Shown here: one piece after another, positions 1,835 through 64,000 of the stretch
Layout: each line of letters begins with the position of its first letter
Position numbering within the stretch: position 1 is the stretch's first letter
Assembly: GCA_003971905.1 (NCBI GenBank)
Contig: RSEE01000002.1
Location: forward strand, 1,178,001 to 1,242,000
From: Moniliella sp. 'wahieum'
Taxonomy: Eukaryota > Basidiomycota > Moniliellomycetes > Moniliellales > Moniliellaceae
Length of the DNA: 64,000 nt
Reading direction: 5' to 3'
The notes under the pieces: model-generated
Databases searched by the model: none
What the model was told of the DNA's origin: nothing
The model's input: the letters and a program-made list of their open reading frames with translations, nothing else
Translations under genes and position numbers: made by a program

Positions 1835-1880
1835 TCTTGAAGCTTGAGACTTGAGAAGCTTGAAGCTTGAGATCTCTGAT
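1835..1880. repeat. AAGCTTG heptad array (degenerate)
   Basis: Four imperfect copies of CTTGAAG/AAGCTTGA run into GAGATCTCTGAT. The unit is the palindrome AAGCTT plus one base. The same motif recurs at 3338, 4292, 4708 and 8527. Confidence 0.75.
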
Positions 1881-2240
1881 AGGTGATTCTGGGATCTGAG
1901 ATCTTGAGATGATCAATCAGATTCAGAGGATCGATGAGATGATCAAATTTCAAACCTCGTATAGCAATCGTCTGTGGGAATGCAGGGCGCTCTGGGCCAG
2001 TGTTTGGCTGAACGGGGAACGTCGGCCGATGAGCTTCTCAGCGGTCAGCGCGCCAGCCTTGAAGAACCAGCGAGTCAAGGCACTGGAGAGGCTTTCCTTT
2101 ATCGTGCGCGTGTATTTTGGAAAAGGGGATGCGTTGATGGCGTTTGTGTGTGGGGATGTCTGTCAATGGCATGTGTGATACGTGGTGGCAGACTCGATGA
2201 CACGATGATGTTTTGAGACAGGCAGCGACAATATGATCAT

Positions 2241-2281
2241 CATGCATCATGCATCATGCATCATGCATCATGCATCATGCA
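2241..2281. repeat. ATGCATC heptad array
   Basis: Five full and one partial perfect copies of the 7-bp unit CATGCAT, that is the palindrome ATGCAT plus C. It is the longest perfect heptad array in the window. Confidence 0.95.
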
Positions 2282-2726
2282 GTATCCGTCAATTCAACAA
2301 CTCTAGATGACTATAGATGTGGATCTGTCCATGTAATTCCATCATGATAAGCGTGCCTGGCCGGGTCGGTTACATTGGCCAAGGCGCCTTAGGCAGTAGG
2401 CCTTGTTGATTATCACCATTTTCCCCTTATTTGTCCAATTTGGCCTCCAAAGCCTCAGGCCTCACGCCTATACTCCGTCGGCTTGTTCCAACACCACAGT
2501 CTCCTCTAGGGGCAAAAGGCTTTAGGCCTTGACAGCCCTCACCGCGATTGCATTGCCCTCTACATTTCCAGAGGTTCTCCACCGAAATCCTTGGGTCCCT
2601 ACGGTCGTAGAGCATTTTTTTTGGCGCGCACACCCTTTGCACGGTATTACGAACTCGTCTTGCTGTGTTGTGCGCGCAATATCTGTTCCACTCTCCAGCC
2701 AAAGAAAAACAGCATTGCAATATCAA

Positions 2727-2829
2727 CCCTGGCGCAATTGGGGGTCCATTGAAATTCTCAGATCTCAGATCTCAGAACCCCTGGCGCAATTGGGGGTCCA
2801 TTGAAATTCTCAGATCTCAGATCTCAGAG
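2727..2829. repeat. 52-bp tandem duplication
   Basis: Two adjacent, nearly identical copies (2727-2778 and 2779-2829) start with CCCTGGCGCAATTGGGGG and end in two AGATCTC heptads each. The near identity suggests a recent duplication. Confidence 0.95.
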
Positions 2830-3337
2830 CCTCTGGGGACCCTGCTCGCGAGGATCGGTCGCATGTGCATCACAATGCACAACCGATGACATTTTCTGTG
2901 GTGTGGTGTTTATTACGTGTACGTGTGCATACGCGTTACGCGCTTAACTACACTGTGATTACGCGTTTTCATCAAATGGCGCTGATGCAGGTCATCAGTC
3001 CTAACCAGCAACCCTAGTCCCACGAGGGACTACACACACGTGTGGCTGTTGTGAGGACTTTTGTAGGCATTGGGGTGGCTTGTGGGCTATACGACCTTCA
3101 CGGGCGCGTTGACTGTTCTCAAGTTTTTGGGCTATCCAGTTGTTTCATCGTTGATTTCCTCAACTCTCTGACTTTGGGGTGGAGGCACCGCGGTTATACC
3201 ATCCTTAGTTGGGGTCGCGCAACAAAACGCGCATTTTCCCACACCACACACAATGGGGTTGTCATTTGGGAGGCACACATATCTGGCACCCGCGGCGGGG
3301 TTAAACAATACATTTATGCGGCTCTCCTTGAAGACGC

Positions 3338-3365
3338 TTTTCAAGCTTCAAGCTTCAACGCTTCG
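3338..3365. repeat. AAGCTTC heptad array
   Basis: Two perfect AAGCTTC units followed by degenerate copies (CAACGCTTC). On the other strand this is the AAGCTTG motif. Confidence 0.85.
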
Positions 3366-3623
3366 AGGACGTCTTCGATCTCTCCAAAGGGCCCCACCCT
3401 CTGGTATCCTGGGAGTACTGATTACACACTGAGTTCAATACTGAGTATAGACTTTTTGACTATGCTGCCACCCACAACACCCGTCCGTGTCATTGAAAAA
3501 CCATGGAATGCCCCTCTGCGGTGTTGCCCTTCACACGGTAAAGATGAACTGGGCTTGAGCTTGAACTACGTTTGAACCTCGAACCAGTGGGTCTTCCAGG
3601 TCTTCCCCGCCGAGCTGCAGGGT

Positions 3624-3654
3624 GGCAGCCTGTGGTTTGTTGCCACAGGCTGCC
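3624..3654. repeat. Perfect 12-bp inverted repeat with 7-nt loop
   Basis: GGCAGCCTGTGG is followed by the loop TTTGTTG and its exact complement CCACAGGCTGCC. About 30 bp downstream lies a TATATATA tract (3685-3692). No gene is evident on either side, so the role is unknown. It could be a decayed promoter or part of a mobile element. Confidence 0.9.
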
Positions 3655-3947
3655 GCTGACCAGGGCGGAGGCCCGACCTCGTGCATATATATAGCCACCC
3701 ACAGCCCTCCCTGGTCTGAAACCTGCCCTGTTCACTACTGAGTAACTGAGTATTCAACTGAATACTGGCTGCATGACGTGCCACTGCGTACACTCAGTAG
3801 TCACTACCAGCGCTCCCTCCCCGCACGGGCAGCCCCACACGCCCATGCCCAATCGGGATCTCTTACTCCACATCACACATGCATCACAGTTCTGCTAGAA
3901 TGGCCTCATCTTTTCTCCACGGTTTTGCCACAAGCAGACCATGCACA

Positions 3948-4107
3948 GGTTATGCATTACGCTGGCCGTGTAGGTCATGCTGGTCGTGTACGTCTTGCTG
4001 ATCGTGTACGTCATGATGGTCGTGTAGGTCATGCTAGTCACTAGTCACATGACGCAGGTCATGCATGTCATGCAGGTCGGCCATGCTTGTCATGCCGGTC
4101 ATGCACA
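3948..4107. repeat. 15-bp-period minisatellite
   Basis: Diverged copies of a unit close to CATGCTGGTCGTGTA run for about 160 bp. The last third is a shorter GGTCATGC repeat. Read as codons, the first part gives a His-Ala-Gly-Arg-Val pentapeptide series, but no gene context supports translation. Confidence 0.8.
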
Positions 4108-4291
4108 CACGGCACTGATCTCAAGCGTATATCTAGGAGGGTGTGCTATATGCACTCTCGGCCAATGAGATCGATGACCTCTCTGACTGTGTGGCTTTCA
4201 GAGCGTCTCTGTGGGACCATTGATACGTTGTCGCGTTGTCCCCGTTGTACCTAGTTTATGATACGTTGTTGTTGAGACACACACACGAAGG

Positions 4292-4313
4292 ACTTGAAGC
4301 TTGAAGCTTGAAG
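4292..4313. repeat. AAGCTTG heptad array
   Basis: Two perfect AAGCTTG units flanked by partial copies (ACTTG and AAG). Confidence 0.9.
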
Positions 4314-4707
4314 TCGATGAGACATGGACCTTAGATCTCATCTGGCACGGAACCGGGTAACGGACTTTTTGGCTCTTCCAGGCTCTCTGTCTTGGATCTT
4401 GCACCTCTTTCTCCCGACACTATCCAAACCAACTGCTAAGTGAGCCTATTGGCCACGGCTCCTTGGTTTTCCCATCCATCCATGCATCCCGGGACGCTGA
4501 CGCTGACCACGGCTCACACATCGCATCGAGTGGCGCAGTGCGAGGTGAGAGGAAGTTCACTAAGGCCTGAGGAAGGCAGATACGCGATAGATGCACTACT
4601 GCGTATTAGATACCGCGGCGGCTATTATGCTCTCGCCGAGCGCTGACGCGTCACCGTGGCGCCGCGGCCCGAGAAAGAGATTGAAAGCTCAATGCACTGT
4701 TCCATTT

Positions 4708-4775
4708 GAAGCTTGGAGCTTCAAAGAGCGCATCATGCATCACCTACTTCAAGAGCTCCAAGCTTCAAGCCTTCA
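4708..4775. repeat. Diverged AAGCTT/ATGCAT repeat patch
   Basis: Scattered copies of AAGCTT with spacers, plus one CATCATGCATCA. It looks like an old, mutated heptad array. Confidence 0.5.
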
Positions 4776-5864
4776 GAAGGCTTTGCATGTTACAGTTCGT
4801 GGCCTGGCGCCGCACCCAAAAGCCCATCGGGTTTAGGTCGGGCAGCCGAGTTGCCGTCTGGCGCCTTCCTCGGTAAATCGGCGTTAGGCACCATATACAC
4901 GCGCTCGGTTTTAATAGAGCGCGTTTCTTTTTTCCCACCCTTAAAAGCTTTGTAAATGCAATGACCACAGCATATGATTAGCTAGTACGGTACTAAAACG
5001 CCATCTATTCGGTTCTCGTGGTGGATGAACGAGTCTGTTGGTCGAAGTGGTTCTCGTGTGCCCCTGCCTAATCGTAATCAGAGCTACAGATTTGAGTCGA
5101 GTTCGACGCGTTCGGAGGTATCTGGTCAAGATTCGCAATGTTTAATGGCGTGTCACTAGTCACTGGCAAGGAGAAGGATATCGCATCGCACCTGGCGGGT
5201 TTGAAACAAACGAGGTGTGGACTGCGTGGAGAGCTGGTCTCGGTTTTAATACCAACTACGACATTCGTGATCGATGGCAAAGACACACGCATCCTATTTC
5301 TCCTTGTTGGGAAGCGAGGAGTGGCATGTGGCGTTTAATTTTCCCGGGGAACTGCATAATGCGGGATGGTGAAGAATCATTTCCATGATATGCAGACGGT
5401 GCATAATTCCCGCCTGGTATCCGTGAGATGCATTTGGCGTATTTGACGGAGCGGGCGTGTCAATGGAAGGCAGTGTCAGCCATTGGGTTCTTCACGATGG
5501 CGCGGTGCACCGCGCTCGCGTGGCTGATGTTGGTCTCATTTCGAAAACAGCAGTCAGTAATGTCCAACGGTCCATGTCAAAAATGTCAACGAGCAGAAAA
5601 ATCAGAGGCAGGCCCGAGGCCTTCCAAACTCTACAACTGGGTCACCAGTCACCGGTCAGGGGCACGGGGCGACCGCAGCCATCCTGCTCTCATCTACCTG
5701 GCTGCCCCCTGCCGTCCGTGGGTTCCCCGGCCGGGATGTCAGCGGCAATGCCCAGCTCTTGCTCGCGGGCCGGGGGCATGGCCCACACGATGTGTGATGA
5801 CATGAACATGTGACGCGACTTTGGCCGAGGCCGTTCGTTCGTCACGCCGATGACCGAGAGCATC

Positions 5865-5898
5865 ATGATCGATGATCGAGGATGGATGATCGATGACC
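5865..5898. repeat. ATCGATG heptad array
   Basis: ATCGATG units with one divergent copy (GAGGATGG). The palindrome is ATCGAT. Confidence 0.8.
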
Positions 5899-6004
5899 GC
5901 GATGGCCACAGTGTTCGGCGTTCGAGGGCGGAGGACCGGTGCGTGTCCTGCCAGAGTCGCGAGCACGGCCGCGTGATGCGGGACGCGTGCCCAGATGGCC
6001 TCTT

Positions 6005-6030
6005 CGGTGACCGGTGACCAGTGACCGGAT
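6005..6030. repeat. ACCGGTG heptad array
   Basis: GGTGACC occurs twice, followed by AGTGACCGG. The unit is the palindrome ACCGGT plus G, with one mutated copy. Confidence 0.8.
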
Positions 6031-6643
6031 GATCGAAATGATCGGAGCAGCAGAGACGCATGACGCTCACCGGTGGGGCCGGTCAGGCTGACCGAGAACC
6101 AATGACCAATCAGTCATCACATTTGCCTCCTCCGAATCAGCGGTTGTGCATCACGCATGGGGCGCCTGATCCCGGTCAGGCGTCGTCTGTCGGCTGCCCA
6201 GGACACGCTGGGGCCTGACTGGTCCCGTGCCCCGCCGCCGGGTGGTCCACGGAGAGCGCGTGTGTGCCGGCCATATTTGGTGCTAACGAGGATAAGCTAC
6301 TCCCACGGGGTAGAAAACTGCATATATCGCAGCCCGCCCCACCCTCCCAGCCGCCGGCCGCCCCCACCTCCTGCCTCCCGTTCTGCTTCCCAGACGCTCC
6401 ACGAGAATTTCGTCGGGCCTGTGCTCATTGGATTGTCTCGCTTCCCTCCCTCTACACCCCTTCATCCGTGTCGCCCTCGCCCTCGCCCTCGCCCGCGCTA
6501 TTAGGCCATGTCTTGTTCCCCGTCCGTGCGCGCCACCCGCCGTCTCTGGCCCATCTCTCCACTCAACTTCACTCTGCCTCCAGCAGCTCCGACAGTCTAT
6601 CCACACCTGACACCCTTGCCAACGCATCCACTCCCCCACCTCG

Positions 6644-7745: not shown

Positions 7746-8526
7746 GCCCGCCTCCTTGCTTTACCCATCTGGCTGCACCCCAATGCTCGCCAGGCTTATC
7801 TAGGTTTGTCATACAGTCGTGTTGTCCATGGCAAGCGCGAGGCCCAACCCTGTTTGTCCACTATTCCGCTATTCTCGTTGCCGTTGGTTGGAGCCTCACG
7901 GACTCGGGTCTGCGACGCAATTCCCCATGCATGCGCATCGTTTTGGGCACGGTCGCGCAATGAAGGGTGGAGGGAGCCGGCGGTCAGGCTGAAGCTGGTC
8001 CAACTGGTCAAGCGTCTAGGTTGTCAAAGAGCATCATAAACACGATATCTCTGAAGCCCCTTTCGATGCGTGCTGCGCCTGCCACCCTATGTCATGTGGA
8101 TCACCTCGTACCAAGCCGTTTGCTTTGGGTCCTCATCGATCATCGTTGGTCGGACTCTTTCCATTCCAACTAATAAGGCCAACCTTCCAGGGAACAAGGG
8201 AAGACCTGAGGCCAGATACCTGATACACTGATAGGATGGCTCCAGTTGTCCGCGTCACGAAAACGAACGAACCCGAGGAGACCTGTGTGGTCTCAATTCA
8301 AATTGTTCCCAGATCGATGATCTTGTACTTTTAGTGCTTCTTTGCCTACGACTAGATGCGTCTTCTCCACTTCTGATTTGATCCTGAGGCCTGATCGATT
8401 GATCCAAGTAGTTAGATAGATGCTGCTGGTTTGTTAGCCTCGGCGTTGCCGTTGTGGCTTAGTGCACCCCTTTCCATTCATCTTCGTGCGCCTCTTTTGG
8501 GCAATGTTGGCCTCAATGCTATTGAG

Positions 8527-8592
8527 CATCAAGCTTCAAGCTTCAAACAGTATGACATGTGACCTGTGACATGTGACATGGGACACGTGACA
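8527..8592. repeat. Adjacent AAGCTTC and ACATGTG heptad arrays
   Basis: AAGCTTC units (8527-8547) are followed within a few bases by a six-copy degenerate array of ACATGTG-like units (8553-8592). Both keep the 7-bp period. Confidence 0.9.
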
Positions 8593-8663
8593 GGGGCGCC
8601 AAGCATGCATATTGAGCACTGAGTCTCAGTACTTTTGTGCTTCCTGCCACCGGGATCAGCAGG

Positions 8664-8715: not shown

Positions 8716-8883
8716 GCTTGTCCCAGCGTGGGGCCTGTATATACACGTTGAACGTGACGCGTGAGCGTGAACTTTGAACTTGAACTGAACGTTGAATTGA
8801 ACCATTTGCTTTGGATTTGCAAGGCTTAGGATCTAAGATCTAACCCAGGTATAGGTCCGCACACTGATTTGGCATTAGTGCAT

Positions 8884-8902
8884 TACGCGTTACGCGTTAC
8901 GC
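8884..8902. repeat. ACGCGTT heptad array
   Basis: Two perfect ACGCGTT units and a partial third. The palindrome is ACGCGT. Confidence 0.9.
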
Positions 8903-8918
8903 CTCAGGCACCTGTCTC

Positions 8919-8936: not shown

Positions 8937-10043
8937 AGGCGGGGCAACGGGCTCGTTGCTTCCCGCGGTACGCGGTGAGTCAGCTGGTCAGCCAACGCAT
9001 GTCATCGTGTCGTTGAGAGGTGTCATCGACGTCAGCGTCATTGATCATCTCAATCATCGGACCGACATGTATCATGACTAGTGACTCATGCAACTCACAC
9101 CATCAATATTCAATCGAATCAATCATGGACCATCCTCGTCGCCCTGTCGGCCACATGCAGAGAGAGAAGAGGCGGGGGCATGATCGATAATCGATACCAT
9201 GTAACAGCCAATCACGCTGCCAACCTGAGAGCTTCGCAGTCGACCCAACCAGCCGTCTCACGAATTTATATATCCCCCCATGCCCCGCCACCTCTGCTCT
9301 GCGACTGTCTTCTCTATTGCATCATGCATCATCCTTCAACTTTCAAGCCCACCCATCAAAGATCGACGTGTGCCGTATACTTAACCTGCCTCTCACGTGT
9401 GTGACCTGCGATACACAACAGTGTGAGGGGGAGAGAAGAGAGGCCAGGGCGTACAAGCAGTTTTTGGGGGGTGGCTATTACGTACCGGCCAAAACACACT
9501 CCGACCACCACCTGTTTGTGCATTGTAAAAGGCCATCCAATGGAAGGAACACACTGACAAAAAAATTAGGCGCAAGTATACAATCTCCTGTTGTGAAATG
9601 TGTGCGGGATGGTCTACAGGGAGGTCACGTTTTCAGCCCTGGCGCAGGGACGCTTGCTATTCACGTTATGCTAAATGACACTACCAATCAGCCAAGGCGT
9701 CTCGCGGGTACTACCCAGTTCAGACATGATACGAAGAAAGGAGCGGACGTTTAATACTGTTTAGGCTGCTGCTGCTCCCATGCTGGGATAAAGGTAGGTG
9801 GTACTCTGGGAGACAGCATCCACAGAACAATCAATCACGCAAGCAAGGGGGCCATCCGTTGTTTGCCTCACACAATTAGAGCTCGACAAGCTATTTCGGG
9901 AGATACAGGTACGAGAATCAACAATCTTAAACAGACAGGTATATCACAGTGGTGAACGAGTCTAAACGCACGGTCGAGGCGTGTGAATGATAGGGTAGGG
10001 GCGAAAGGGAGTCAAGAAGAGAGGTAGGAACAAAAGGAACTGT

Positions 10044-10090
10044 CTTATGAGGCCTGAGGTTCAGGCTCAAGCCTGATCGATAATCACCTG
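10044..10090. repeat. AGGCCTG and ATCGAT repeat patch
   Basis: GAGGCCTGAGGTTCAGGCT is followed by CAAGCCTGATCGATAATC. These are degenerate members of the AGGCCTG and ATCGAT families. Confidence 0.6.
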
Positions 10091-12858: not shown

Positions 12859-13735
12859 GGAGCATAAGCAATGGTTCGGACGTCAAAGCCATGTTCAGCG
12901 TCGGGTGGGGGGAGGCGGTGTCGACAGAGCAGAGAGCGTGGAAGAAAAGAAGAACTCTAGTATATATAGTAACGGGGTGTGGGGCGTGCGCGCGGTAGTC
13001 TGAGCGGGAGAGGGAAGAGGGGCTAGCGTTGTGGTTGGAGAGACGAGACCGGGGCAAGCATGAGGGCGTGAGAGCGGCTGGTATTGAGGGTGTCTTTCAG
13101 GCGAGGCACATGACTAGATGCTGCTGTGGAAGGGTTATGTCCGCTGTTGTCACATGTCAACCGCATCAAATGCAAAATGCCGCTTAGTAGCTCACGCTGC
13201 ACAGATCCGTGTGATATGAGGCGGTAGCAAACACCTGGGCCGGGTCGGTCGAGCAGGCATATAGAAGTGGGTTAGATGGATGCGTAGACATTGTCATCAT
13301 TGGCACATTGTACTGAGTGCGGCATGCACAATGGCAGAGCCGTCAGTGTGGGTCTATACCAGGAGTAGCGCTTCGGGGGAAGCATATATAGCTGTGACCA
13401 AAGAGAGCAGGGGAAAGTAGATCCAGTCTACTACATACAAAACAGATGCTAGATCAGGGAAGAGACTGATGATGGCAGGGGACGTGGAGGGACACTTTTC
13501 TTTTGGGTGCATTCTCGGCCCTGTCACCTACCATGGGCTCCCACCTGGTTCGTACAACTGTTTTCCTTTGGCACAGAATGCTCACAGTGCACCTATACTC
13601 CATCTTCTCCTGGGATAGATAAGCCAAAAAATCGGTTCTTGTGCTCAAGCATTAACAGATCCTGGTAAATGTCTGTAAGCTGCTGTTTCGGCGGAGCTTT
13701 GGCAGCTGCTGAGCACTTGTTTAGCCAAGCATGGA
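12859..13735. other. Intergenic region between unidentified gene and hydrolase 3' end
   Basis: Apart from the TATA tract at 12961 and a second TATATA near 13384 I see no gene, RNA or clear repeat here. Confidence 0.5.
12961..12968 (-). promoter_or_regulatory. TATA box of the unidentified minus-strand gene
   Basis: A TATATATA tract lies 103 bp upstream of the ATG at 12858, a plausible TATA position for a fungal gene with a short leader. Confidence 0.4.
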
Positions 13736-15169: not shown

Positions 15170-15330
15170 TGTTTCCGTTGGTGGTGGTGGGGAGGCAAGA
15201 GATGCGGTGGGACACTCGGCCTGTGGCCATGTGGTGAGCGTTTTGCCCAGCGGCTCCTGTAGTCTGGTGTGACATGTGACCTGTGACGCGGAGATCCGCC
15301 TCGCGCCGGCTGCCTGCGCCTTTGGGGCAT

Positions 15331-15670: not shown

Positions 15671-15712
15671 CGATGATCGATGATCGATGATCGATCTAAT
15701 CGATATTCATGG
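15671..15712. repeat. ATCGATG heptad array
   Basis: Three perfect ATCGAT units spaced by one base (GATGATCGATGATCGATG) and a further ATCGAT nearby. Confidence 0.9.
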
Positions 15713-18700: not shown

Positions 18701-18836
18701 TCCCTGAGGCCTGAGGCTCAGCGAGGCGCTGCACCTGAGCGACTGAAGAGGCTCTTGGGGAAGTGGGCGCAAGGGGCGCAGCATGGGGACAGTGTACCCC
18801 AACCCAGGGTCCTCCATGCTGCATGCTGCATGCACG
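18701..18836. repeat. AGGCCTG and GCATGCT heptad patches
   Basis: CCTGAGGCCTGAGGCTCAG at about 18703-18721, and CATGCTGCATGCTGCATGC at 18815-18833. In both the unit is a palindromic hexamer (AGGCCT, GCATGC) plus one base. Confidence 0.75.
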
Positions 18837-19562
18837 CAGGCCAAATTGAATGTGATACTGCGCACAATGGTCCACTGCCGGGGATCTAAGGTGGGCTGTG
18901 CGGTGGGAAGCCGGTATGCGCGCCACCATCTCCAGAGCTAGGTATGTATTCGCAGCGCACCTGCGGAAGCTGCGAAGGCCCAGGACGATGCGGGCGTGGG
19001 CATCACCGAGACCATCATATACGAGACGGCATTGGCGAGTTTGACTTTTACTGATCCGAATAAGCAGGCGGTAGGCGAATGCCATGATGTGGTTGGCCGC
19101 AGCGCGTGCGAACAAGCGGGGGATATGGGATCGGACTGAATACACAAACCGGTGTCTGCGTCGGGGGCCTCAGCTTGTTATAGACACTGGGGTGACCAGG
19201 TAGACTGGTAGACCACAGCAGAGCAGCCACAGCACGCAGCAACCGGCAGGCGTGCCTCTCCAGTGGCGTTGATGCATGATGTATGATACCTTGTGTGTGA
19301 CGTCACGTGTCACATGTGTGTGAAAATACCCCCACTCTGACCAGATCTGGGGTAGAATCAACCTGTTGAAACGTTCACGCGGTTCTCCGATTCTGTGAAG
19401 CTATCCGGTGGATTCTACTTGGACTGCGACATGGTCTCTGTCTGAGGCCTCACCTGAGGCCCCTGAATATTGAATCCCCTGCCTTTCCCAAGAAGAAGAT
19501 TCGACGGGAGTCAGTTACACTGCCATCATTACTCAGTACTCATTCACCTCCACGCCTCCACA

Positions 19563-29040: not shown

Positions 29041-30221
29041 CGCGCAAGCCATGCTGAATGGCCGCCGACAGCAGGCAGCGCACAGCCAGCGCAGCCCAGC
29101 GCCCCGCCCCGATAGTGTGTATACCCGCTACATAGCGTCCACACTTTATCCTCGCCTCGCAAACGCATTGTATACCGAGTACCGACGGAGGCAGCCGCCT
29201 CTTCGATGCGCCGGCGGCTGCTCATCGCCTGCAGATGGATGATCAGCCACCTGGACTTACTGTGTCCATCTCAGAGCCCAGAGGGCATGCCGGAACTCCG
29301 GGGGTCTCGGTCAGCCGTGCTGTCGCTCTGCCGCTCGGCTGCTGGCACGGTGTGCGTCTCACACGTGCTTCCATAGCACCCCCGCTGCGGAAGCAGGCCG
29401 AGGGCAGCAACAACCTCGCAAGAGCCGCCCATGCGAACGCCATGCCATCCTCTCTTCCCTATCTCGAATCATCCATCTTCACCCTTCAATCCACCGCCTA
29501 CTACGTACTTGCAGACAGCCCCCCCCGCCTACGCGCACACAGACACAGTCCACCCCTGGCCACCCCCTCCCATCTCCTTTCGCTAGGAACGCGTGTTGCC
29601 TTTCGGTACATGTGTATACCACAGCCCGCACATGCGCCTCCGGCCGTCGCTCGCCAATCTCCATCGGATGGTGTCCATCATCCGGCACCCTCTCTTTGGG
29701 GGCTGCTTTTTTATTGTGCTTGATAGCAGAGAGACCCATCCGAGCCACACTCTCGCTAAACACACTCATCCTAGCTGTGTGGGAAGAGATATAAGGAGGA
29801 CCGAATGCAGGATGCGTATTGCATGGAGATCACCTTATCGCGTCTTTCCTGCTGCGATAGGTCAGGGCGATCAGGGTGGCTCTGCCCTCTGGGGCCGGAG
29901 ACAACCCCCGAACCTCTCCAAGGAATAAGAGACATCATAATGACGGATGCCTCCCTCCACTTGCGTTATAGTAAACGCCTTCGAAGCAATTTTATGGTGG
30001 GAACATGGGCGTTTCCGGCTGCATTCTTAATGACGCCTCCCTCCCATATAACTGCCCACAATCCTCGCTCTCCTCAGGCCTCAGACCTCATACTTCCTCA
30101 ATGACCCAAATCAAAGTAACTTCGCCTACAAAAACAGGTAGCAGTGAGTGCCGTGTGATCATGGTCGACCTCGCATTACGGTAACCAGTGCGCGCGTGAG
30201 CGTGAGGGTGAGCGCGCGAGC

Positions 30222-30368: not shown

Positions 30369-30402
30369 CGTGACGCGTGACGCGTGATCGATAATCGATG
30401 AT
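30369..30402. repeat. ACGCGTG and ATCGAT heptads side by side
   Basis: Two ACGCGTG units run straight into ATCGATAATCGATG. Two different heptad families share one continuous array. Confidence 0.9.
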
Positions 30403-32880: not shown

Positions 32881-33118
32881 AGAACGGAGTGCACGCGGCT
32901 GGCGGGTAGGAGGGGGGGGTCTTAAGCTGTGCTACCGGCGGAAAACTCGGTAAAAGAGGCCTGAGAACCGCCAATGCAGTACCAGGTAACGGGTAGCAGG
33001 TAACCGGTAAACGGGGTCACAGTGACGGTTAAACAGGTTCAATATGATTCAACGGCATTCAATATCCAACCTTAATTTGAAGCATTTTAGCGCACGCCGA
33101 CAGCGGCCTGTGGCCATT

Positions 33119-33149
33119 TAACGTTAACGTTTAACGTACGTTGAACGTG
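33119..33149. repeat. AACGTT heptad patch
   Basis: AACGTTAACGTTTAACGTACG followed by TTGAACGTG: AACGTT units with spacers T or A and diverged flanks. Confidence 0.75.
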
Positions 33150-33430: not shown

Positions 33431-33478
33431 ATCGTTAGCGCGTTAGACGCGTTAACGTTAACGTTTAACGTTCAACGC
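33431..33478. repeat. AACGTT/GTTAAC and ACGCGTT heptad array
   Basis: CGTTAGCGCGTTAGACGCGTT runs into AACGTTAACGTTTAACGTTC. The palindromes AACGTT, GTTAAC and ACGCGT overlap along the array. Confidence 0.8.
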
Positions 33479-34008: not shown

Positions 34009-34036
34009 CATCACGCGTGTCGTCACGCGTCACGCG
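34009..34036. repeat. ACGCGTC heptad array
   Basis: CACGCGTGTCGTCACGCGTC followed by ACGCGC. The palindrome is ACGCGT, with spacer C. Confidence 0.8.
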
Positions 34037-34123: not shown

Positions 34124-34150
34124 TTACCGGTTACCGGTTACCGGGTACCT
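34124..34150. repeat. ACCGGTT heptad array
   Basis: Two perfect ACCGGTT units, then ACCGGG. The palindrome is ACCGGT. Confidence 0.9.
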
Positions 34151-34159
34151 ACCACGTTC

Positions 34160-34362: not shown

Positions 34363-34495
34363 CCAGCGCTGAGCGCTGACGCGCTGACCCATTATTAAAC
34401 CGCTCGTTGAGCGCAGCGTTCAACGTGTTGAACGTTGATTAACGATTAACGTTGAACGTTGAACGTTGAATGTACTTGAACGTTGAGACGTTGAG
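34363..34495. repeat. AGCGCTG and AACGTTG heptad arrays
   Basis: AGCGCTGAGCGCTGACGCGCT is at 34364-34384. From 34418 a longer AACGTTG array follows, with three perfect adjacent units near 34449 and degenerate units on both sides. Confidence 0.9.
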
Positions 34496-35167
34496 GCCAG
34501 CGGCCTGAGGGAGGTTGAACGTGTTGAGGACCTGAGGCCCTCCGGCATCAGCCGGAGGTCTCAGTATTGAGTACTAGTTACTGAAGGGCCTGTGGCCTCC
34601 GCGGGAGGAGAGAGGTATGCGATGGTTGAGACGACGTCTACGTATCCGTCGCGCCCGATGGACACGGCAGCCAACAATCATCTGAAGTATCACAGCGGAT
34701 GGGACATGCGCCGAGTGACGGTGACTGGTGACGCGTGACGACGGACTCGGTGACTGGAACGGTGGCGGGGAAGAGGAGGACAGGGAGCAGACAGGGAGAC
34801 GAGGGAGACTGGCGCTGTGCCTCTGTGCGCAGGCCGCGGTTAGCCAGGCACGCCCTGGCACGCCGTTGTAGCTCCGCTCGGCACTGCGGCAGAGGGCGAC
34901 TAGCTTCGCGTGGGCCGCATGTCACTCTTTCTTATAAGCAAGCCCGCCTTCTCTCGGCCCTCCCCGACCGCCCTTTCTTCCCCTTCCCCACCGTTTCACC
35001 TTCGACCGTCAACCCCCCACACCATCCCCACCACTGGTTGGTGCCCGAGAGCCGGCTATCTCCTCCCGTTCCTCCCATCACCTCTCTCCAGCCGGTCTGG
35101 CCTTCCTTCTCACCCCTTCATCCTCTGGCCTGGAGCCTATACGCCGGTCGTATTCCTCATCATCATC

Positions 35168-41233: not shown

Positions 41234-42997
41234 CTTGCGATCCGGGGTGTTCGCGTTCGTGGAATGTGTGGCCGAGCGCGTTTTCCTCTCGGAATCGCAC
41301 CGCTCTTCATTTTTGCGTCGTGGGGGGGGATAAAAACCCTTTTTGGCGTGGCGTGTGGGGCGGATAAAACGGGTGCAGTCGCTCGATCGACTGTTGCCCC
41401 CCCCCTCACCTCTTTCTTCCACACACCTCATATTTGGGGCAGAGCATAAGACGTGGACGCGGCCACCTTCCATCCCGGCCCCCGTTACCGTCAACACACC
41501 AATGGCCGTTCGAAACCTACACTACTTTGTTTCCCCTCTGCATGCCCCTCTTTCACCCCCCCCCCCCCTCCGTTCTCCAATGATATGAAACCCACGTATG
41601 CGCGTCCCCCCCACCCATGTTGTAATCAATGTTGGTGCGACGGAGAAGTAGTCGGACGGTCCAAGGTGCAGGGGTGGCCGGTTGATGGGGAGTGTCTGTT
41701 GGATGTGTTGACGCGAAGGTCTGTAGCGGAGGGTGACCGTGGGGTACGCACGCAGGGGTGCGGGACGGGGCGGACGGTCAAGGATTTTCTCCCCAGCTGA
41801 CGCACTGATGAGAGCGGGAGAAAGGAGCGCCAGACAGCCACTATTCTCGCCACGATTGTCCCGGACGGGGGGTCGGAGTAGAGCGCAAGCACCTATCTCT
41901 GCATCAATGCATGTCCCCGTCGAGATGGACTGGGAGATGCTGGCCGCGTCTTGTGTGTTGCGTTGCGTTGCATGAATGACATGAGCATGAGGCCAACAAA
42001 GCATGGCTGGGCGGCCTGTGGGGGCTGCGGGTAGGGTTAGTCGGCGTGGGTGCGGGCGGGCGGTGGGCAGAGGCGCGGGCCGGGGGGAAGGTGAGTAGTG
42101 TGAATGGAAGGACACATGAAACAGCGTACGCTCTGGAGCGGCCAGAAACCGAGGGTGGGGGCTGGATGGTGGCCCTGTGCCCACTTGCGTTGCTGCGGCC
42201 CTGGCCTGCGCTGGCCGGGCTGGCTAGGCACCGCGACTCATGTACATGGCACGCACCAGGTACCATTGATTGGGTCACCGCATCCCGGCCGGCACCGGAC
42301 ATGAAGAATGAACGTTGGTTTTCGGCGCGTCCGGCCCAGGGCGTAGTAGGGCGTACCCGCAAAGCAGCGGGGGGCACTGGAGGGCTCGGGTGTGCGCGCT
42401 GGTTCGCCGTTTCTGTGGGGGCAGTGGCTGGGGCAGGACAAGCGCCACGCTGTGCTGCACGATGATCGATGAGTTCGGTCAACCGATGATCAATGAACAC
42501 ACGCCGAGAATGCATTCAATCTATCGACTATCGATGACCACATGCCGAATGCACGCCCGCCAGAGCGCTCTCCATGAAACTCGCCGAGAATGTGGCGCTT
42601 GGGGCCGTGGTCCGGTTGTCCGGTCTTGTCCGGTCCTGCTCCGTCCTGCCGTGCTGCTCCGGCCGGCTGCCCCCTGCCGACCCTGTCCCTGCAGCACCAC
42701 GTGGGTACCCGCAAAGATGCATCACATGATGCATGATGTTCGATGATCGATCGGTACGCTGACTAGGAGGAGTCGCTCGTGGGCGGCAGCCACAATACAC
42801 AGCCCCAGTGCCTGCCTCCCGCACCGCCCTGGTGCCTGGCTGGTGGCTGCAGGCGCATGCGAGCGTTCGTGTTAAAAAGTAGTGCGCAGCGTCGATGCCC
42901 GCCTTGCGCCCCGCCCACCTCCTTCTTCGTCCCCTCCACCACCTCCATCTTTCTTCTCGCTGTTTTTTTTTATCCTTCCCATCCCACGTCCCTCGCC
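41234..42997. other. Intergenic region with C-rich tracts
   Basis: No gene recognised. A 13-C run lies at 41556-41568. An ATGCATG/ATCGATG patch is at 42717-42752. Longer open frames on the minus strand (for example 41522-42184) are compositional, rich in Pro, Arg and Ala. Confidence 0.55.
42717..42752. repeat. ATGCATG and ATCGATG heptad patch
   Basis: GATGCATCACATGATGCATG is followed by ATGTTCGATGATCGATCGG. Confidence 0.7.
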
Positions 42998-56492: not shown

Positions 56493-56532
<40 letters not shown>

Positions 56533-57622: not shown

Positions 57623-58219
57623 CTTGGCAGTCGCACGCTTGGCAAGATGGCGGTGGAGAGAAAAAAAAGTATCCACGGCGGCTGTTCCTACGCTTTTGGC
57701 GGGTTGCGGGGGCGGGCCATCCTGACGAAAGCTGCGGCGCCCGCAATAAAATTGCACCATTAGGGTTGCCTGCCAGGGTTGCCCGGTGCTGATTTGCAAT
57801 TTTACCTGCCAAGCCCTCCACTCAGCTCAGGCGGCGCATGAGCATCACACGTCACGCGTCACGGTGACGAGTCGGCGACTGCAATCGCTGATCACATTGA
57901 ATACCGTTGGAGCGGCCGCTAACACTCACTGAGCGAGCGCAGCAGCCACTTGGCACTACGCAAAAGGCAAGAACAACTGGCATGTCCCCTGGCAAACCTC
58001 AGCTCAGCGCCCTCATTTTTCCAGCGCGCCAGGTAGACTGTCGGCTACCAGGTTGCCCCTCTGACGCTATGCACAATGATCTGAGTGCGTCTCAATCATG
58101 CCATCTCGTACATCCACCTTCTGCTGCCTCCGAAGTCCAGCAGCACCCAGCTCGGCCTTCCCCAGGCAGATGCTGCTGGCCGGGGGCGCGGACGGAGGAG
58201 GAATGCAGCGTATTACGCG
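57623..58219. other. RPL10A upstream region
   Basis: No gene recognised. A short ACGCGTC heptad patch lies at 57846-57872 (ACACGTCACGCGTCACGGTG). Confidence 0.55.
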
Positions 58220-58871
58220 TTACGGTTGCTTGCTGTGCACCGTTTCGGTAGGCGGGATGAGTTCCCGGGCGGCGGCATGGTACCCACAGCCCGAGCAGAT
58301 GCGAAGCTGGGGCTCCTCGTTCCATTGGGTAATGTGCGGCTTGAGTTGGGTGCCCAAGTCGGTGCAGTAGAAGCTGGCCTTGCGGATCAACGTGGGTTCC
58401 GCGTGCGCTTTCGTGTTGGGGCAGTACCACACGCAGCTCATCTGGGTTCATGGGGTTAGCCTTGGGCGGCTCGGGCGCTGGACCATCCAAGGGAGGTAGG
58501 GGGGAGGGGGGGGTTAGGCACGCACCGTTCTGTCCCTCGGGACGGGTGCGCTCGACGACGAGGCCAACGGTGTTTTCGAAGCGGATGGGCGAGTGGGCCG
58601 TGTTGGCCGGAAGCATAAACATCTCCCCTTCCTTAATTGGCACATCTTTGAACTTGCCATCCTCAATGATCTTGAGCAGCATGTCGCCCTGGACCTGGTA
58701 AAAGAACTCCTCGGTGGGCTGGAAGTGGTAGTCGCTGCGCTGGTTCGGCCCGCCAACGACCATGACCGTGTAGTCCTGCGAGCGGAAGAGGCAAAAGTTG
58801 CCCACCGGAGGCGCCAGACGCTCCTTGTTCTCCTCCACCCAGCGGGGGAAGTTGAGTGGCGGAATGACCAT
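58220..58871 (-). CDS. BNA1: 3-hydroxyanthranilate 3,4-dioxygenase
   Basis: Opens the ring of 3-hydroxyanthranilate in the kynurenine route to quinolinate and NAD. It starts MVIPPLNFPRWVEENKERL. The cupin shows NFCLFRSQDYTVMVVGGPNQ, then RSDYHFQPTEEFFYQVQGDM (iron ligands His and Glu), KEGEMFMLPANTAHSPIRFE and GLVVERTRPEGQN. An 84-bp intron (58442-58525, GTGCGT...ACCCAG, branch GGCTAAC) splits the Asp codon of DELR. One extra base near 58425 shifts the frame, after which WYCPNTKAHAEP, YCTDLGTQLKPHITQWNEEP and ICSGCGYHA supply the four-Cys rubredoxin-like site of fungal and bacterial forms. The end is TVHSKQP-stop. At about 189 residues it fits the family. Confidence 0.95.
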
Positions 58872-59669
58872 GGGTGCAGGTGAGGGCGAAGGGGGAGGTG
58901 GTACGGGGACAAGAAGGACGAGCGGCGACAAAGGACGACAGGCCCGGGGTTTATTTATGCTTGCCCGCTGATGTCGTCTCATCTTCGGCGGCCTGCGCAA
59001 GCAGCTCATATTGACCGCCCCGACATGCGACAGGCGCCTCTCGGATTCGGCCTTGGCTGGCGCCTACGCCGACCAGCGAGGTCACGTGTTTTTTGGTCTA
59101 CCAGTGCAACATGTAATCTCCGGTATGGGCAATCGGACGCGCTCTTCTTGCCGCTACAAGCAAGAAGCACGTGCGCTCGGACCACTTGTCGGATTTCGTG
59201 GAACGCTGCAGAAAAAGAAAGTCTCTTCGTCTTCGGCAACTGGTACCCAATGGACCAGACATCCGACTGCGTTGGCGCGCAGCCGCCCTTCCGCCTCCCC
59301 CAATAACGCCTCGTCTGGTGGCCACCAGACCAGGACGCAAAACAGCTGCATCGCGGCCCATATGGCGTGCATCGATACTTGGTTAGAGCGAAAGGAACTA
59401 CAATGCAGAGATTACGAGAACAGGGGTGTGTGTAAGCCGTTGAAGCAATGCAATGATGATGGGAAGGGGGAATCATGGTCCGGGGTGAACCGACATGTTG
59501 TTGTACACGCGTATCGAGATACATGGAAGTCGTTGAGACGAACAAGGGAAAGGACAGAAGTTACGAGGTGGGTGTCAGAGGTCGCAGAGGGGGGTGAGGG
59601 GGAGCGAGCAACGACAGGCAAGACCCGCTTGGAGTTGAACCAAGGGTGTGCAGGGTCGTGGGAAAAAAA
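58872..59669. other. BNA1 promoter and SAM synthetase 3' region
   Basis: No further gene or repeat recognised. Confidence 0.55.
58951..58960 (-). promoter_or_regulatory. TATA-like element of BNA1
   Basis: GCATAAATAA on the minus strand, about 80 bp upstream of the start codon. Confidence 0.35.
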
Positions 59670-60921
59670 TTAAAGCGTGAGCTTCTTGGGCTGCTCCCAG
59701 GTGAACTCGGGGCGGCCAAAGTGGCCATAAGAGGCAGTGGAGCGGTAAATGGGCTTTTGGAGCTCGAGGTGGTGCACAATCACACCCGGCTTGAGGGTTA
59801 AAGTTCTTGCGCACAATGTCCACCAGCTCGGCATCCGTCTTGGTCGAGGTGCGTACGACTCGACCAAGCCGACAGCGGTTCGGCCACACCAATCGCGTAC
59901 GAAAGCTGCACCAACGCCCGGCGGGCCAGACCGGCAGCAACGAGCGACTTGGCCACCCAACGCGCCGTGTAGGGCCGAGCGGTCCACCTTGGAAAAGTCC
60001 TTGCCCGAAAACGCACCACCACCGTGCGCGCCCCAGCCTCCGTACGTGTCGACAATGATCTTGCGGCCCGTCAGACCCGCATCGCCCTGAGGGCCGCCAA
60101 TCAAAGCGGCCGGAAGGCTGGATGTGGTAGATGGTGTGCTCGTCAATCAGGTTGGCAGGAATGACCTCCTTGATGATCTTCTCGAGAATCTCGGCGCGCA
60201 GGTGCTCCGTCGTAACCTCGTCCGAGTGCTGGGTCGAGACGACAACCGTGTCCACACGAACGGGCACCACCGCACCGCCATCCTTCTTGTACTGGACCGT
60301 GACCTGGGTCTTGGTGTCGGGACGCAGCCAGGGGAGCGCACCCGTCTTGCGTGCGACCGTCAGCGCACGGTTCAGCTTGTGGGCAAGGGTAAGCGTGAGC
60401 GGCATGAGCTCGGGCGTCTCATCCGTAGCATAGCCAAACATGATGCCCTGGTCGCCGGCACCATGGTCTTCCAACGAACCATGGTCCAGGCCCTGGGCAA
60501 TGTCCGGGCTCTGCTGCTCAATGGCAACCAGAACATTGCACGTCTTGTAGTCAAAGCCCTTGGCGCTGTCGTCGTACCCAATCTCCTTGATCGTGTCGCG
60601 AATGACCTTTTGGTAGTCAATCACCGCCTTGGTCGTGATCTCACCAAAGACCATCACCATGCCCGTCTTGGTCGCCGTCTCGCAAGCAACCTTCGAGTTG
60701 GGGTCCTGGGCGAGGCACGCGTCGAGGATGGCATCGGACACTTGGTCACAGATCTTGTCGGGGTGGCCCTCGCCGACCGACTCGCTAAGCGCAAGAAGGA
60801 ATGGGTTAGGCACGAGGAGAGGAGCGAGCCGGGGCCAGCGCGGGGAGGAAGCGTACGACGTGAAGAGGAAGTGCCCCTCGGGCAGCTTGTGGTTGTGGAA
60901 CGAAACACCGTTGGCAGCCAT
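59670..60921 (-). CDS. SAM2: S-adenosylmethionine synthetase
   Basis: Makes S-adenosylmethionine from methionine and ATP in the cytosol. Exon 1 codes [20 protein letters not shown] plus TS. A 72-bp intron (60785-60856, GTACGC...CGCTTAG) splits the following Ser codon. Exon 2 starts [20 protein letters not shown], which holds the catalytic His. Signature 1, [15 protein letters not shown], and signature 2, [14 protein letters not shown] (in a shifted frame), are intact. Other blocks are [36 protein letters not shown] and [11 protein letters not shown]. The end is [10 protein letters not shown]-stop. Frame breaks lie near 60120, 60010-59990, 59910, 59860 and 59800. The length of about 393 residues is typical. 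Confidence 0.96.
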
Positions 60922-62763
60922 GGCGCGGGCAGGCGGATGGGCGGGGGGGCGGGAGAGAAGGAGAGAGGGACGGGGGGGGAAGGAAGAGGAGAGAGGCGGT
61001 GAGAAGAAACGTGGGGGGGCTTTTAAAAGCGCCAATTTTTTTCGATTGGATCGCTGGCCACGTGCGGGCAGCTGCTGTGGTTTTTTGCTGCTGGGTGCCG
61101 GCCAGCCAAGCATCTATCCATCCCATCCCGGCCTCGCGCGCGCTCCCGCCACTGCCCCGGCCGCACCACGCCGCACCACGCCGCACCACGCCAGAGCTGC
61201 AACTTTCACCCTTCCGCCCGCCCCGCCGTCCGCCACTGGCCCTGTGCCCGGGGGCGCCCAACCGGCCCATTCCGCCCCTCTGCCCCCGACATCTCCGCGG
61301 CAACTTTCAATGGGAGGGCGCGGCGTTGCACCCGAGCAGGGCCGTGCCGTGCTTTCGGCCTAGGCGCCATGTGCGTCCAAATGGCGTGCTTGGGCATGCC
61401 CAGCAACCAGCAACCCTACCGCAAGCACGCGGGCAACGCGTGAATATTGAATGCCTGCCCGCCCCCCTTATCGGATGCACAGCCTACCCACCTGCCTACC
61501 CGCACCCCACACCCTTGCGGGCCTGCAGATTCAATGTTCAACGTGAACGTTCAACTCGGGCGTCAAATGTTCAAACGCACCCAGCGCAGCGCCGCTGTCT
61601 CCAACGAGGGGGGATGCAGGGTGGTTGGGTTGGCCGCCACAGCCGCCGGCCGCTCTGGCGGAGCAACGGGTGAAATGGACCAGCCCTCGACCAATCATTA
61701 ATCAGCGATCGATGAGCTCCAGTTTTGCCCTCGCAAGCTCAGAGCGGTCAGGTGACCGCCACCGCTCCGCCCCTTCCGCCTCGGCTGACCTGGTCACCCA
61801 GTCACGGCCAGCGCTCAGGCAGAGCCTGGCTGCGTCGGGATGTGGACGGTGTGGATGTCGCTGATGGATGACGCAGGCGGCGGGGGTGGGATGGGCGTGC
61901 GGGCGGGTGGGCACGCTGCGAGCGCAGCGCTCCGGGCAGCTCCCTGCGCCCGTTCCCAACAGCCCACACTGCCCCTGCCCAGCCCCAGCGCGTCAGTACT
62001 CAGTCGGAGCTCAGGCTCTCAGGCACGTGGCCGCGTCTGCGCACTGTGGCGCCCCGCCGGCCCCAGCCGTGCAGCGGAGCGGCGTGGAGCCACACTGGCG
62101 CCGTGCGGCTGCAGCTGCCCTCGGCTGCTCCCCACATTCAGGCTGGCAGGCTGCACGCTGCAAGCTCCAGATCGCAGAGCTTCAGGCTTCGCCCGGAGCC
62201 GGGCAAGCACTGGCGCAGCGCAGTGGCTAGTGGCTAGTGGTTCTGGCCAAGCGAGCGCGGCGCTGCCGGCAGACGGCGCTGGGCCACATTGTGCCCGCTC
62301 CCACGTCACACACCGCGCGGTGCCTGCGCGGTGCCTGCCAGGGCGCACCGCTGCGTGCCGGTCCGCTGCCGCGCCTCGGCACACGCGGGCACGGCGCCAG
62401 TGCAGCCAGGGGGCGGTGACATGTGGCAAGGCGCATGGCATGTGGCATGTGGCACGTGTGATGCAGGCGAGCAGTGTGATGCGTGACGGCCGCCTGACAG
62501 CGCGGCCTCCCCCGGTGAGCCAGTCCCAGTCGTGGCGTCGCGGCGACCGGCGGCTGCTCTGATCGGGATCGCTCAGCCGCTCCTCCCTTGGCGCCAGCGC
62601 CGCCAGGAGACCCCCGCCCGCGTTGGTGCGCGCCAGGCTGCCCAATTGAAACCAAGCCTGCCCGCCTCTCCCCGCTGCCCTTCCGTCTCCCTCGGCCGAC
62701 CCACCACCCGCGTCCTCCGCCCAACCCCCAACCCCCTGCCGCCGCCCGGCGTGAGATTGCACA
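60922..62763. other. GC-rich divergent intergenic region
   Basis: Between SAM2 and the YABBY-like gene. No gene recognised; the very long minus-strand open frame across 62019-63440 is an effect of high GC with Arg/Gly/Ala-rich translation. A triple CGCACCACGC repeat lies near 61166-61193, and an AACGTTC patch near 61534-61556. Confidence 0.55.
61021..61028 (-). promoter_or_regulatory. TATA-like element of SAM2
   Basis: TTTTAAAA, about 100 bp upstream of the SAM2 start, is the only A/T-rich element in a very G/C-rich leader. Confidence 0.35.
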
Positions 62764-63436
62764 TGTCCGGCTACCACGCGTACGCGCTGCCCCCCCACTA
62801 TCGCCGCCCCCCGCGCCCGCCGTCGGCCTCGCCACGCCCCACCTGGACGACTGTCTGCTGACCGACCCGCGCCTCGGCCCCTCCCTCCTCTCCTCCCAGC
62901 CCACCTACCGCTCTCTCCCCCCCTGGAGCTCCTCGCCCCCCTCGACCCCAACACCGCCTTTGCCCCCACCTCTGCCCTCGTGCCCCCTCCCCCACCCCAC
63001 CCGGACTGGGCCGCGTCGCCCCCCCCCCAGGCTCGACCTGCCGCGCCCGCGGAGCACATGCCCCCCTCTTCCACATCCCCTCCACCCATGCGCCGCCTGT
63101 CCCGGACGCGCCCCTGTTCGCCTCGCTCGCGCCCGATGTCGTTCCCGCCCCCGCGCCAGGTCCGCTCGCCCACCCGCCCGTCAAGCGAACGCGCACACCC
63201 AAAAGCGCTTGAACAATCCGGCCAAGCAGGACGAGTCTCCACCGCGGCGCAAGCGGCCTTGGTCCCCGTACAATGTGTACATGTCCAAGGCGGTCGCCTT
63301 GGTGCGCGCCCGCCGCGAAGGCATGACCCACAAAGAAGCGTTTGGCATCGCCGCCCATGAATGGCATTTCCACCCGACCAACCCCAAGAAGAAAGCCGAC
63401 GCAGAGGAGACGCCAGCGGCCAACACGTCTGCCTAG
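62764..63436 (+). CDS. YABBY/HMG-like domain protein, frameshifted
   Basis: The C-terminal 75 residues form a small domain: RKRPWSPYNVYMSKAVALVR, then GMTHKEAFGIAAHEWHFHP and NPKKK. This matches the compact HMG-like fold called YABBY-like in fungi (pattern PSxYNxYM, MxHKEAF, aromatic Trp, P-N). In plants YABBY proteins are DNA-binding developmental regulators; the role in fungi is not settled. The N-terminal region, from ATG 62764 (MSGYHAYALPPHYRRPP), is Pro/Ala-rich and crosses several frames (breaks near 62820, 62930 and 63160). A basic stretch VKRTRTPK just before the domain looks like a nuclear signal. The start is tentative; the domain is clear. Confidence 0.65.
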
Positions 63437-64000
63437 CCATCTAGCCATGCTGCTCTTCACCCCTCCCCCTCCGCATCCCTCCCTGCCCGCGCGGCCCCCG
63501 CCCCGTATCCTCTTTTTTGCTTCTTGCACACCCGTCGAACGTTGACCTTGAACGTTGACTTTACTCTCCCTCGCCTGGGTCCATCCCCCTCCTGCTCTGT
63601 TCCAGCCGTACATACTGTCTGTGTCCTCTTTGCCTCTTGATGTGGCTCCTGCTTGACCCCACTCATGCCCTATCCCATTGCTGCCGAGACGCTTCAGGCG
63701 GGCTGCACAGCGGGCTCAAGTGACTATACCTAGTCGCATCGTACTCGTACTGCCTTCATAGAGAGGGGCTGCTGGCCTGCCGGCGCAGCATGCATGCAGC
63801 TTTCCCATCCTCTCTCCCCCTCCCCCTGTTATTTGTCCTTGGTTTCGTTTCCCTTCTGCCTATGGAGAAGATCGAATGCGATGCCCATATGGCCCACGTA
63901 TTCCAGCTGTGATGGCTTTCTAAAAACGCGTGGTCTTGCCCAGGATGGCGGCGATAGGAGAACATGGACCCAGACAAAGGCAACCCGGTATAGCAAGTAT
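63437..64000. other. Window end, 3' of the YABBY-like gene
   Basis: No gene recognised. An AACGTTG heptad pair lies at 63537-63560 (GAACGTTGACCTTGAACGTT). The 75-codon minus-strand frame at 63756-63983 could be the end of a gene beyond the window, but no motif supports it. Confidence 0.5.

Follow-up and report, generated by a model that had tools for sequence, protein, structure and literature searches.

Copying of a DNA end upon itself has been described in several systems. In 'alternative duplications', in which internal sequence lies between the duplicated units, a 3' flap persisting where flap processing by FEN1/Rad27 fails bends back, is elongated on its own sequence and is then joined by ligation to the Okazaki fragment downstream, as described in work on FEN1 and XPF (PMC13202174). 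In rad27-deletion yeast the nascent strand turns back to copy itself before rejoining the template, so that a palindrome is extended and sequence is duplicated; the events considered here start from palindromes or quasi-palindromes (for example, a 15-bp palindrome leading to a 66-bp insertion) and made up 21 of 455 changes (PMC5677150). Small inverted triplications (DUP/IN/DUP) have median segments of 148/160/148 bp with a 30-bp spacer and 6-bp junctions, and one route proposed for them is a fold-back with return to the original template (PMC13334657). The four-point template-switch model allows point 2 to lie before point 1 as an intra-strand event (PMC7954356), and a related study of rRNA template switches filters for a copied length of 6 or more (PMC8794818). 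Here we examine short tandem arrays of 7-bp period in a 64,000-nucleotide stretch of the basidiomycete Moniliella sp. 'wahieum' (positions 1,178,001 to 1,242,000 of contig RSEE01000002.1, C2 in our numbering; hereafter the window). It is probable, in our view, that every array starts from a single 7-nt insertion produced when DNA was copied by fold-back at a triplet TNA.

The proposed founder of an array, pqTNA-q'p'-pqTNA (primes marking complementary bases), resembles each of these systems in part. As in alternative duplications, a duplicate (pqTNA) encloses an internal piece (q'p'), but here the smallest duplicate measures 5 bp, with 2 bp between the units and TNA as the loop; the genome is one found in nature, and FEN1 is not implicated by our data (PMC13202174). 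The fold-back self-copying and return to the template proposed here are those of rad27-deletion yeast, whose events, in contrast, vary in size and start from palindromes or quasi-palindromes (PMC5677150). With small inverted triplications the founder shares the order direct copy, inverted copy, direct copy and a spacer between direct and inverted copy, here the 3-nt loop TNA; its segments are 2/2/2 bp, whereas the described class has duplications of 7 bp to more than 10 kb and reverse-complementary junctions of about 6 bp, against a 2-bp inverted segment and no prior complementarity beyond T and A in the present case (PMC13334657). In the terms of the four-point model the founder amounts to a single event in which points 2, 3 and 4 all precede point 1, although the available text of that model gives no such fixed geometry or sequence requirement (PMC7954356). 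By our reading the 7-bp unit also resembles CAG/CTG hairpin repeats, being a self-complementary even core plus one base; those repeats expand from existing ones, while new units here seem to arise in sequence that was not repetitive before (PMC11505666). The events are thus distinct from known fold-back events in size, fixed geometry, TNA rule and genome-wide abundance. A TNA-directed 7-nt insertion, a fixed 2-3-2 geometry or arrays of this kind were not found described in the open-licence literature (subscription journals lying mostly outside its coverage).

The analysis covers one genome, of 69.5 Mb in 223 contigs. Stretches of 10 kb were sampled outside the window, at first 20 and later 24 (240 kb; 304 kb together with the window), all from the first ten contigs; some contigs of the genome are homologous copies. 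Period-7 runs in the window were counted at 15 nt or more, with a poly-G run excluded as non-primitive. A palindromic hexamer was present in 22 of 30 such runs in the window and, among runs of 14 nt or more outside it, in 78 of 144, against about 11% by the count given in the original prediction, which establishes that the arrays are real and that tandem 7-mers do not fall to the chance level away from the window. The 'near-total adherence' at first described was nevertheless overstated, as the share is three quarters inside the window and about half outside. Across the window and 20 stretches the count was 94 of 160 runs (≥14 nt). The palindromic share at period 5 (98/410) and period 9 (2/28) was near chance, and periods 3-12 other than 7 showed no comparable excess in this sample, numbers above period 9 being small. 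Outside the window we counted 151 arrays in 240 kb, or about 629 per Mb; scaled to the genome this gives some 44,000 arrays, a rough figure in view of the few contigs sampled and the presence of homologous contig copies. Ordinary 7-bp repeats are also present, such as a long perfect array of GCACCAA (about 16 copies, L009:9014-9123) with neither a palindromic hexamer nor the TNA rule described below.

The idea of a constant design rule held in that palindromic hexamers are enriched, but 'any palindromic hexamer' proved too broad: the hexamer was of the class A....T in 78 of 78 runs outside the window, and GCATGC (18815-18833) was the single exception among the 22 window runs. Moreover, AAGCTTGAAGCTTGAAGCTT (AAGCTTG three times) occurs 1038 times in the genome and its reversed version (TTCGAAG, likewise a palindromic-hexamer array) not once. 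The arrays can be re-read as a T-N-A recurring at intervals of 7 bases, successive triplets enclosing a 4-bp palindrome. At a lag of 7, TGA, TCA, TAA and TTA were enriched 3.3- to 6.9-fold over expectation, with nine other tested triplets at 0.9- to 1.7-fold. The equally symmetric cores ANT, CNG and GNC served as controls. The inner tetramer was palindromic in 329 of 824 cases of TNA-4-TNA, compared with 21/506 for ANT, 104/1708 for CNG and 112/2138 for GNC, and for TNA with inner lengths of 2, 6 and 8 the values (128/461, 13/619 and 3/461) were near chance. Genome-wide counts of degenerate forms, which cover 3 of the 16 tetramer palindromes and were set against the reversed pattern, gave 9833 against 204 for TNAAGCTTNA, 6732 against 275 for TNATGCATNA and 5091 against 657 for TNACGCGTNA.

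Within this rule the remaining letters vary. At least 15 of the 16 tetramer palindromes were seen at least once among the same-N rows listed (the 70 commonest), with TATA at zero in the count of dinucleotide usage, and N is nearly free (102-149 events per 10,000 TNA). Dinucleotides made up wholly of A and T are used about six-fold less per pqTNA than the rest (11/4080 against 297/19172), which fits the prediction for a 2-bp stem. In a scan that took in stems of 1, 3 and 4 bp and loop lengths from 0 to 9 nt, the sole combination to rise 1.5-fold above the mirror and complement controls was 2+3, together with its 3+1 reading. One-sided events fall on the two strands in similar numbers (70 and 81 of 151). 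A wider recognition motif was rejected, as the same 151 events compared with background gave weak shifts only, the largest at -3 and -1. On the fold-back reading proposed below, the constant is TNA with fixed 2-nt copying, and the palindromic hexamer is a product of the junction and not the primary design.

The shortest arrays point to how a unit arises. When equal-N palindromic units were classed by matched flanks (left, right), (0,2) with 35 and (2,0) with 25 were dominant, the other classes being (0,1) 9, (1,0) 7, (1,1) 5, (0,0) 11 and (2,2) 8. Duplication of whole 7-bp odd palindromes would have left both flanks of the shortest arrays matched. Since these flanks are mostly unmatched on one side, the typical founder is one-sided, either pqTNA-q'p'-pqTNA or its mirror TNArs-s'r'-TNArs. 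Among 510 same-N TNA-4-TNA, those with an inner palindrome matched on the left only in 77 cases, on the right only in 91, on both sides in 70 and on neither in 32, while one flank was matched with the inner pairing lost in 28 and 28; we estimate that decay of two-sided duplicates would leave many more unpaired one-flank cases than these 28 + 28. The 12-mer of either founder form was taken as the signature (long arrays being counted more than once). It occurs 308 times in 304 kb, whereas none of 10 order-3 Markov simulations produced it more than once, and its analogues occur 4 (ANT), 5 (CNG) and 13 (GNC) times. Lone odd palindromes away from arrays were not enriched (TNA 1.08, ANT 1.02, CNG 0.98, GNC 0.90).

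A dispersed repeat of about 550 bp, with at least 53 matches in the genome and many copies ending near CCCATAACA, is a useful natural record of small insertions. The sample consisted of 22 copies (the 20 loci L033-L052, with L009:2468-3011 and L024:5939-6560) and held 14 signatures, five of which have a 7-nt-shorter form elsewhere at no more than 2 mismatches of 29. For these five clearest insertions the empty form is found in 11-15 other copies at up to 6 mismatches. At that lax threshold 8 of 14 signatures had an empty form, against a background of 187/1187 that applies to this threshold only. Read from the letters, the five near-exact empty sites each contain one TNA and no 7-bp odd palindrome, and the two bases before TNA are not complementary to the two after, so that prior complementarity is limited to the T and A of TNA itself. 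The filled sites contain just 7 nt, derived from the flank, and a single transient inverted copy made between two switches accounts in full for the change from a clean empty allele to the filled one. Two-sided duplication of pre-existing odd palindromes is disfavoured by these empty sites, by the one-sided units and by the unenriched lone palindromes.

Among insertions polarised by absence from at least 5 other copies, 24 events had a length of 7 nt, compared with 2 at 6 nt and 5 at 8 nt; such events overlap and may be shared by descent, and are therefore not independent. Seven of the 24 polarised 7-nt insertions are exact signatures and one more has a single mismatch. This count supersedes a first list of gaps, in which 10 of 70 seven-nt gaps obeyed the rule and which mixes insertions with deletions among diverged copies. 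Several insertions of 2 and 3 nt among the repeat copies are simple triplet duplications.

We propose that a 3' strand end ...pqTNA would fold over the triplet TNA and copy its own p and q, giving ...pqTNAq'p', a 7-nt mini-hairpin with a 2-bp stem, flush with the duplex. Rejoining would take place at the base of the hairpin: either synthesis would resume on the template at p, or the strand would be ligated to a 5' end lying downstream in which pqTNA is still present. The product would be pqTNA-q'p'-pqTNA-rs, or pq-TNArs-s'r'-TNArs for an event on the other strand, and its junction would create the A....T palindromic hexamer. As each product would hold two TNA sites, repetition of the event and ordinary slippage could lengthen arrays by 7. 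The likeliest setting would be a gap or flap stage of lagging-strand synthesis. We infer a single-stranded intermediate, a 3' end that is flapped or frayed over 5 nt, and the enzymes involved; the need for TNA and the exact two-base copy point to an enzyme with fixed geometry, which may act on such a 5-nt end. A templated mechanism was among the origins first suggested, and it is favoured by the palindrome, which reads as a copy of the two bases flanking TNA, and by the empty sites.

Several observations weigh against fold-back copying as a full account. Fold-back priming explains neither the preference for TNA over CNG, GNC and ANT nor the copying of exactly two bases. Use of the GC dinucleotide is low (40 per 10,000) despite the strong stem expected of it, and cores with different N are also in excess (59/314 palindromic). 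No strand bias was seen between neighbouring events within 1 kb (44 same, 49 different), and a link to replication direction through strand clustering is accordingly not shown. In the repeat, 17 of the 24 polarised insertions of 7 nt depart from the exact signature, 14 of these lying by our reading in one TGAAGAG-rich stretch, and other insertion sizes are common (1 nt, 24 events; 2 nt, 45; 3 nt, 21; 10 nt, 11; 18 nt, 12; 19 nt, 16). Furthermore, an unpolarised scan at no more than 2 mismatches gave 37 seven-nt events (with 5 of 6 nt and 6 of 8 nt), 30 of them without the signature, and two of the seven with it share one array. Finally, an alignment of the homologous contigs L057 and L058 also shows gaps of 3-6, 8, 9, 11 and 15 nt, some within arrays.

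Homologous contig copies bear on both assembly quality and array length. The 8 signatures of L053 are all present, in the same order, in its copy L054 (11 in total) and, by our reading, 14 of the 21 in L057 recur in L058 (25 in total). L057 and L058 are 97.9% identical over 2406 bases, with a 7-nt difference in one array and a 14-nt difference in another, so the arrays still change in length. Homologous contigs differ very often by one-base indels (54 in these 2406 aligned bases), which suggests assembly errors of that size. Arrays of 7-nt period common to homologous contigs are not explained by one-base errors, and with signatures recurring between both contig pairs it is unlikely that the arrays are assembly artefacts. 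FEN1-like reading frames occur in the two copies L053 and L054 (95.6% identical over 3163 bases, 27 one-base gaps), with NCBIfam scores below the curated cut-off, and a pair that we read as XPG-like in L055 and L056 (97.6% over 3086 bases, 52 one-base gaps). The frames of both pairs are interrupted, probably by assembly errors or through diverged haplotypes. We make no claim of FEN1 loss as a cause, the XPG-like pair being interrupted too and assembly indels likelier.

The arrays and units of the window are given below, with strand as '.' throughout; nine further signature runs of 10-11 nt are omitted unless joined to a longer run.

1836..1847 (.) one-sided unit CT-TGA-AG-CT-TGA (pqTNA q'p' pqTNA)
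1855..1870 (.) array AAGCTT+G
1943..1954 (.) unit TCA-AATT-TCA (AT-only stem, rare)
2238..2281 (.) array ATGCAT+C, 6.3 copies, the window's longest
2452..2464 (.) unit AGGCCT+C
2756..2776 (.) array AGATCT+C in 52-bp tandem duplication, first copy
2808..2828 (.) array AGATCT+C in 52-bp tandem duplication, second copy
3340..3358 (.) array AAGCTT+C
4034..4048 (.) array ACTAGT+C
4293..4313 (.) array AAGCTT+G
4730..4742 (.) unit ATGCAT+C
5152..5164 (.) unit ACTAGT+C
5865..5896 (.) two adjacent arrays ATCGAT+G
6005..6019 (.) array ACCGGT+G
8133..8145 (.) unit ATCGAT+C
8383..8394 (.) unit AGGCCT+G
8529..8546 (.) array AAGCTT+C
8553..8592 (.) degenerate array ACATGT+G
8753..8764 (.) unit ACGCGT+G
8830..8843 (.) array AGATCT+A
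8883..8902 (.) array ACGCGT+T
9075..9086 (.) unit ACTAGT+G
9103..9114 (.) unit AATATT+C
9318..9332 (.) array ATGCAT+C
10048..10059 (.) unit AGGCCT+G
13148..13159 (.) unit ACATGT+C
15268..15280 (.) unit ACATGT+G
15671..15695 (.) array ATCGAT+G
18703..18717 (.) array AGGCCT+G
18815..18833 (.) array GCATGC+T, palindromic but outside the TNA class (exception)
19270..19281 (.) unit ATGCAT+G
19464..19475 (.) unit AATATT+G
19530..19542 (.) unit AGTACT+C
30072..30084 (.) unit AGGCCT+C
30369..30402 (.) joined families, ACGCGT+G then ATCGAT+A/G
32999..33010 (.) unit ACCGGT+A
33124..33137 (.) array AACGTT+T
33458..33472 (.) array AACGTT+T
34021..34036 (.) array ACGCGT+C
34124..34144 (.) array ACCGGT+T
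34365..34379 (.) array AGCGCT+G
34427..34438 (.) unit AACGTT+G
34448..34470 (.) array AACGTT+G
34728..34740 (.) unit ACGCGT+G
42460..42472 (.) unit ATCGAT+G
42725..42738 (.) unit ATGCAT+G
57850..57863 (.) unit ACGCGT+C
58213..58224 (.) unit ACGCGT+T
61441..61452 (.) unit AATATT+G
61693..61704 (.) unit ATTAAT+C
61993..62004 (.) unit AGTACT+C

Their distribution is uneven, with 10-11 palindromic sites per kb at 2, 8 and 34 kb and none in 39 of the 64 kb. Different families do join in one array, as first described, at 8527-8592, 30369-30402 and 34363-34495. The 52-bp tandem duplication spans 2727-2836 and carries an AGATCT array in each copy. The genes of the window include FKS1 glucan synthase domains, 3-hydroxyanthranilate dioxygenase and a YABBY-type domain (Pfam), and a G6PD C-terminal domain is open across 291 residues. 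This content looks fungal, a reading made from domain matches; the YABBY C-terminal domain (30.4 bits) lies in a reading frame at 62519-63433, in a genome otherwise fungal-looking. No light-harvesting match was obtained, and a conserved rRNA pattern and IFT46 each gave no hits, the latter in a search that lacked a working control. Across the genome, reverse transcriptase (RVT_1) matches number at least 71, several with identical scores.

The same products might be left by a dimeric nuclease or transposase that recognises TNA and makes a staggered cut, after which fill-in, hairpin opening (P nucleotides) and end joining would give a duplicated 5-mer with a 2-nt palindromic addition, the arrays then being footprints of mobile elements or of a domesticated transposase. 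TNA is indeed symmetric, strongly required and without a strong wider motif, like a short target-site duplication; the genome has mobile-element genes (the RVT_1 matches), and a flank hairpin opened two bases in would yield identical letters. We nevertheless hold this origin to be unlikely. P nucleotides should come from either end, so that pqTNA-TN'-pqTNA should be common, yet apart from TGCA, which fits both models, none stands out among the 70 commonest tetramers listed. The inserted 7 nt derive from the flank, and no element was seen between TNA copies, although no search aimed at elements with a TNA target duplication was made. Flanks of six arrays are unrelated, and the density of arrays in the sample would represent very many footprints. 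A common element around the arrays was rejected on the same loci, the flanks of six AAGCTTG loci (eight minus two overlapping) failing to align outside the arrays.

Ordinary 7-bp microsatellites, in which slippage duplicates pre-existing odd palindromes and a hairpin-folding loop is favoured as in CAG/CTG, would account for a unit made of an even palindrome plus one base, for window arrays of up to 6.3 copies and for the 7- and 14-nt differences between homologous contigs. Slippage probably does lengthen arrays once they are present. As the origin of the unit it is improbable: lone odd palindromes are at 1.08, minimal units are one-sided, and the five near-exact empty sites are not odd palindromes, so the new unit is not a copy of an existing one; stem strength alone would, moreover, favour CNG and GNC, both at chance. 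Functional sites kept by selection, whether cruciform spacers or binding sites of a protein family tolerant of hexamer sequence, were both put forward in the original prediction, and we give this explanation very little weight. Arrays are clustered in parts of the window and many are common to homologous contigs, but neither version gained support. The one array that was folded gave a z of -1.04 against shuffled sequences, 33 of 200 of which did as well. At least 15 of 16 tetramer palindromes occur, flanks are unrelated and lack a strong common feature, and there is no strong wider motif. In addition, the five clearest insertions are missing from 11-15 other repeat copies, and since TNA every 7 bases tends to place stops in every frame, arrays would be scarce in reading frames even if they had no function. 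Repetition of insertions gives arrays, and hence neither kind of site is needed. REP- and HIP1-type dispersed elements are each one conserved palindromic sequence; a dispersed palindromic element of that type does not match the range of tetramer palindromes seen here or the nearly free N.

Fold-back copying at TNA may also constitute a distinct class of mutation, a sequence-directed event tied to a lineage-specific enzyme, in which a 3' end at T-N-A has exactly two bases copied and 7 nt inserted, seeding tens of thousands of microsatellites from non-repetitive DNA; this wider proposal we put forward tentatively, as somewhat more doubtful than an even chance. The birth of microsatellites from non-repetitive DNA is an old question, and here birth leaves a readable signature, with the new unit, the letters copied and, in the repeat copies, the empty site visible together. 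The strict rule makes the intermediate testable with short oligonucleotides, and the signature can be searched for in other genomes. Earlier examples of fold-back copying come from cancer cells and from mutants in flap processing, and mostly involve tens to hundreds of bases; the present data suggest that it can run in a natural genome at the scale of two bases and under a strict sequence rule.

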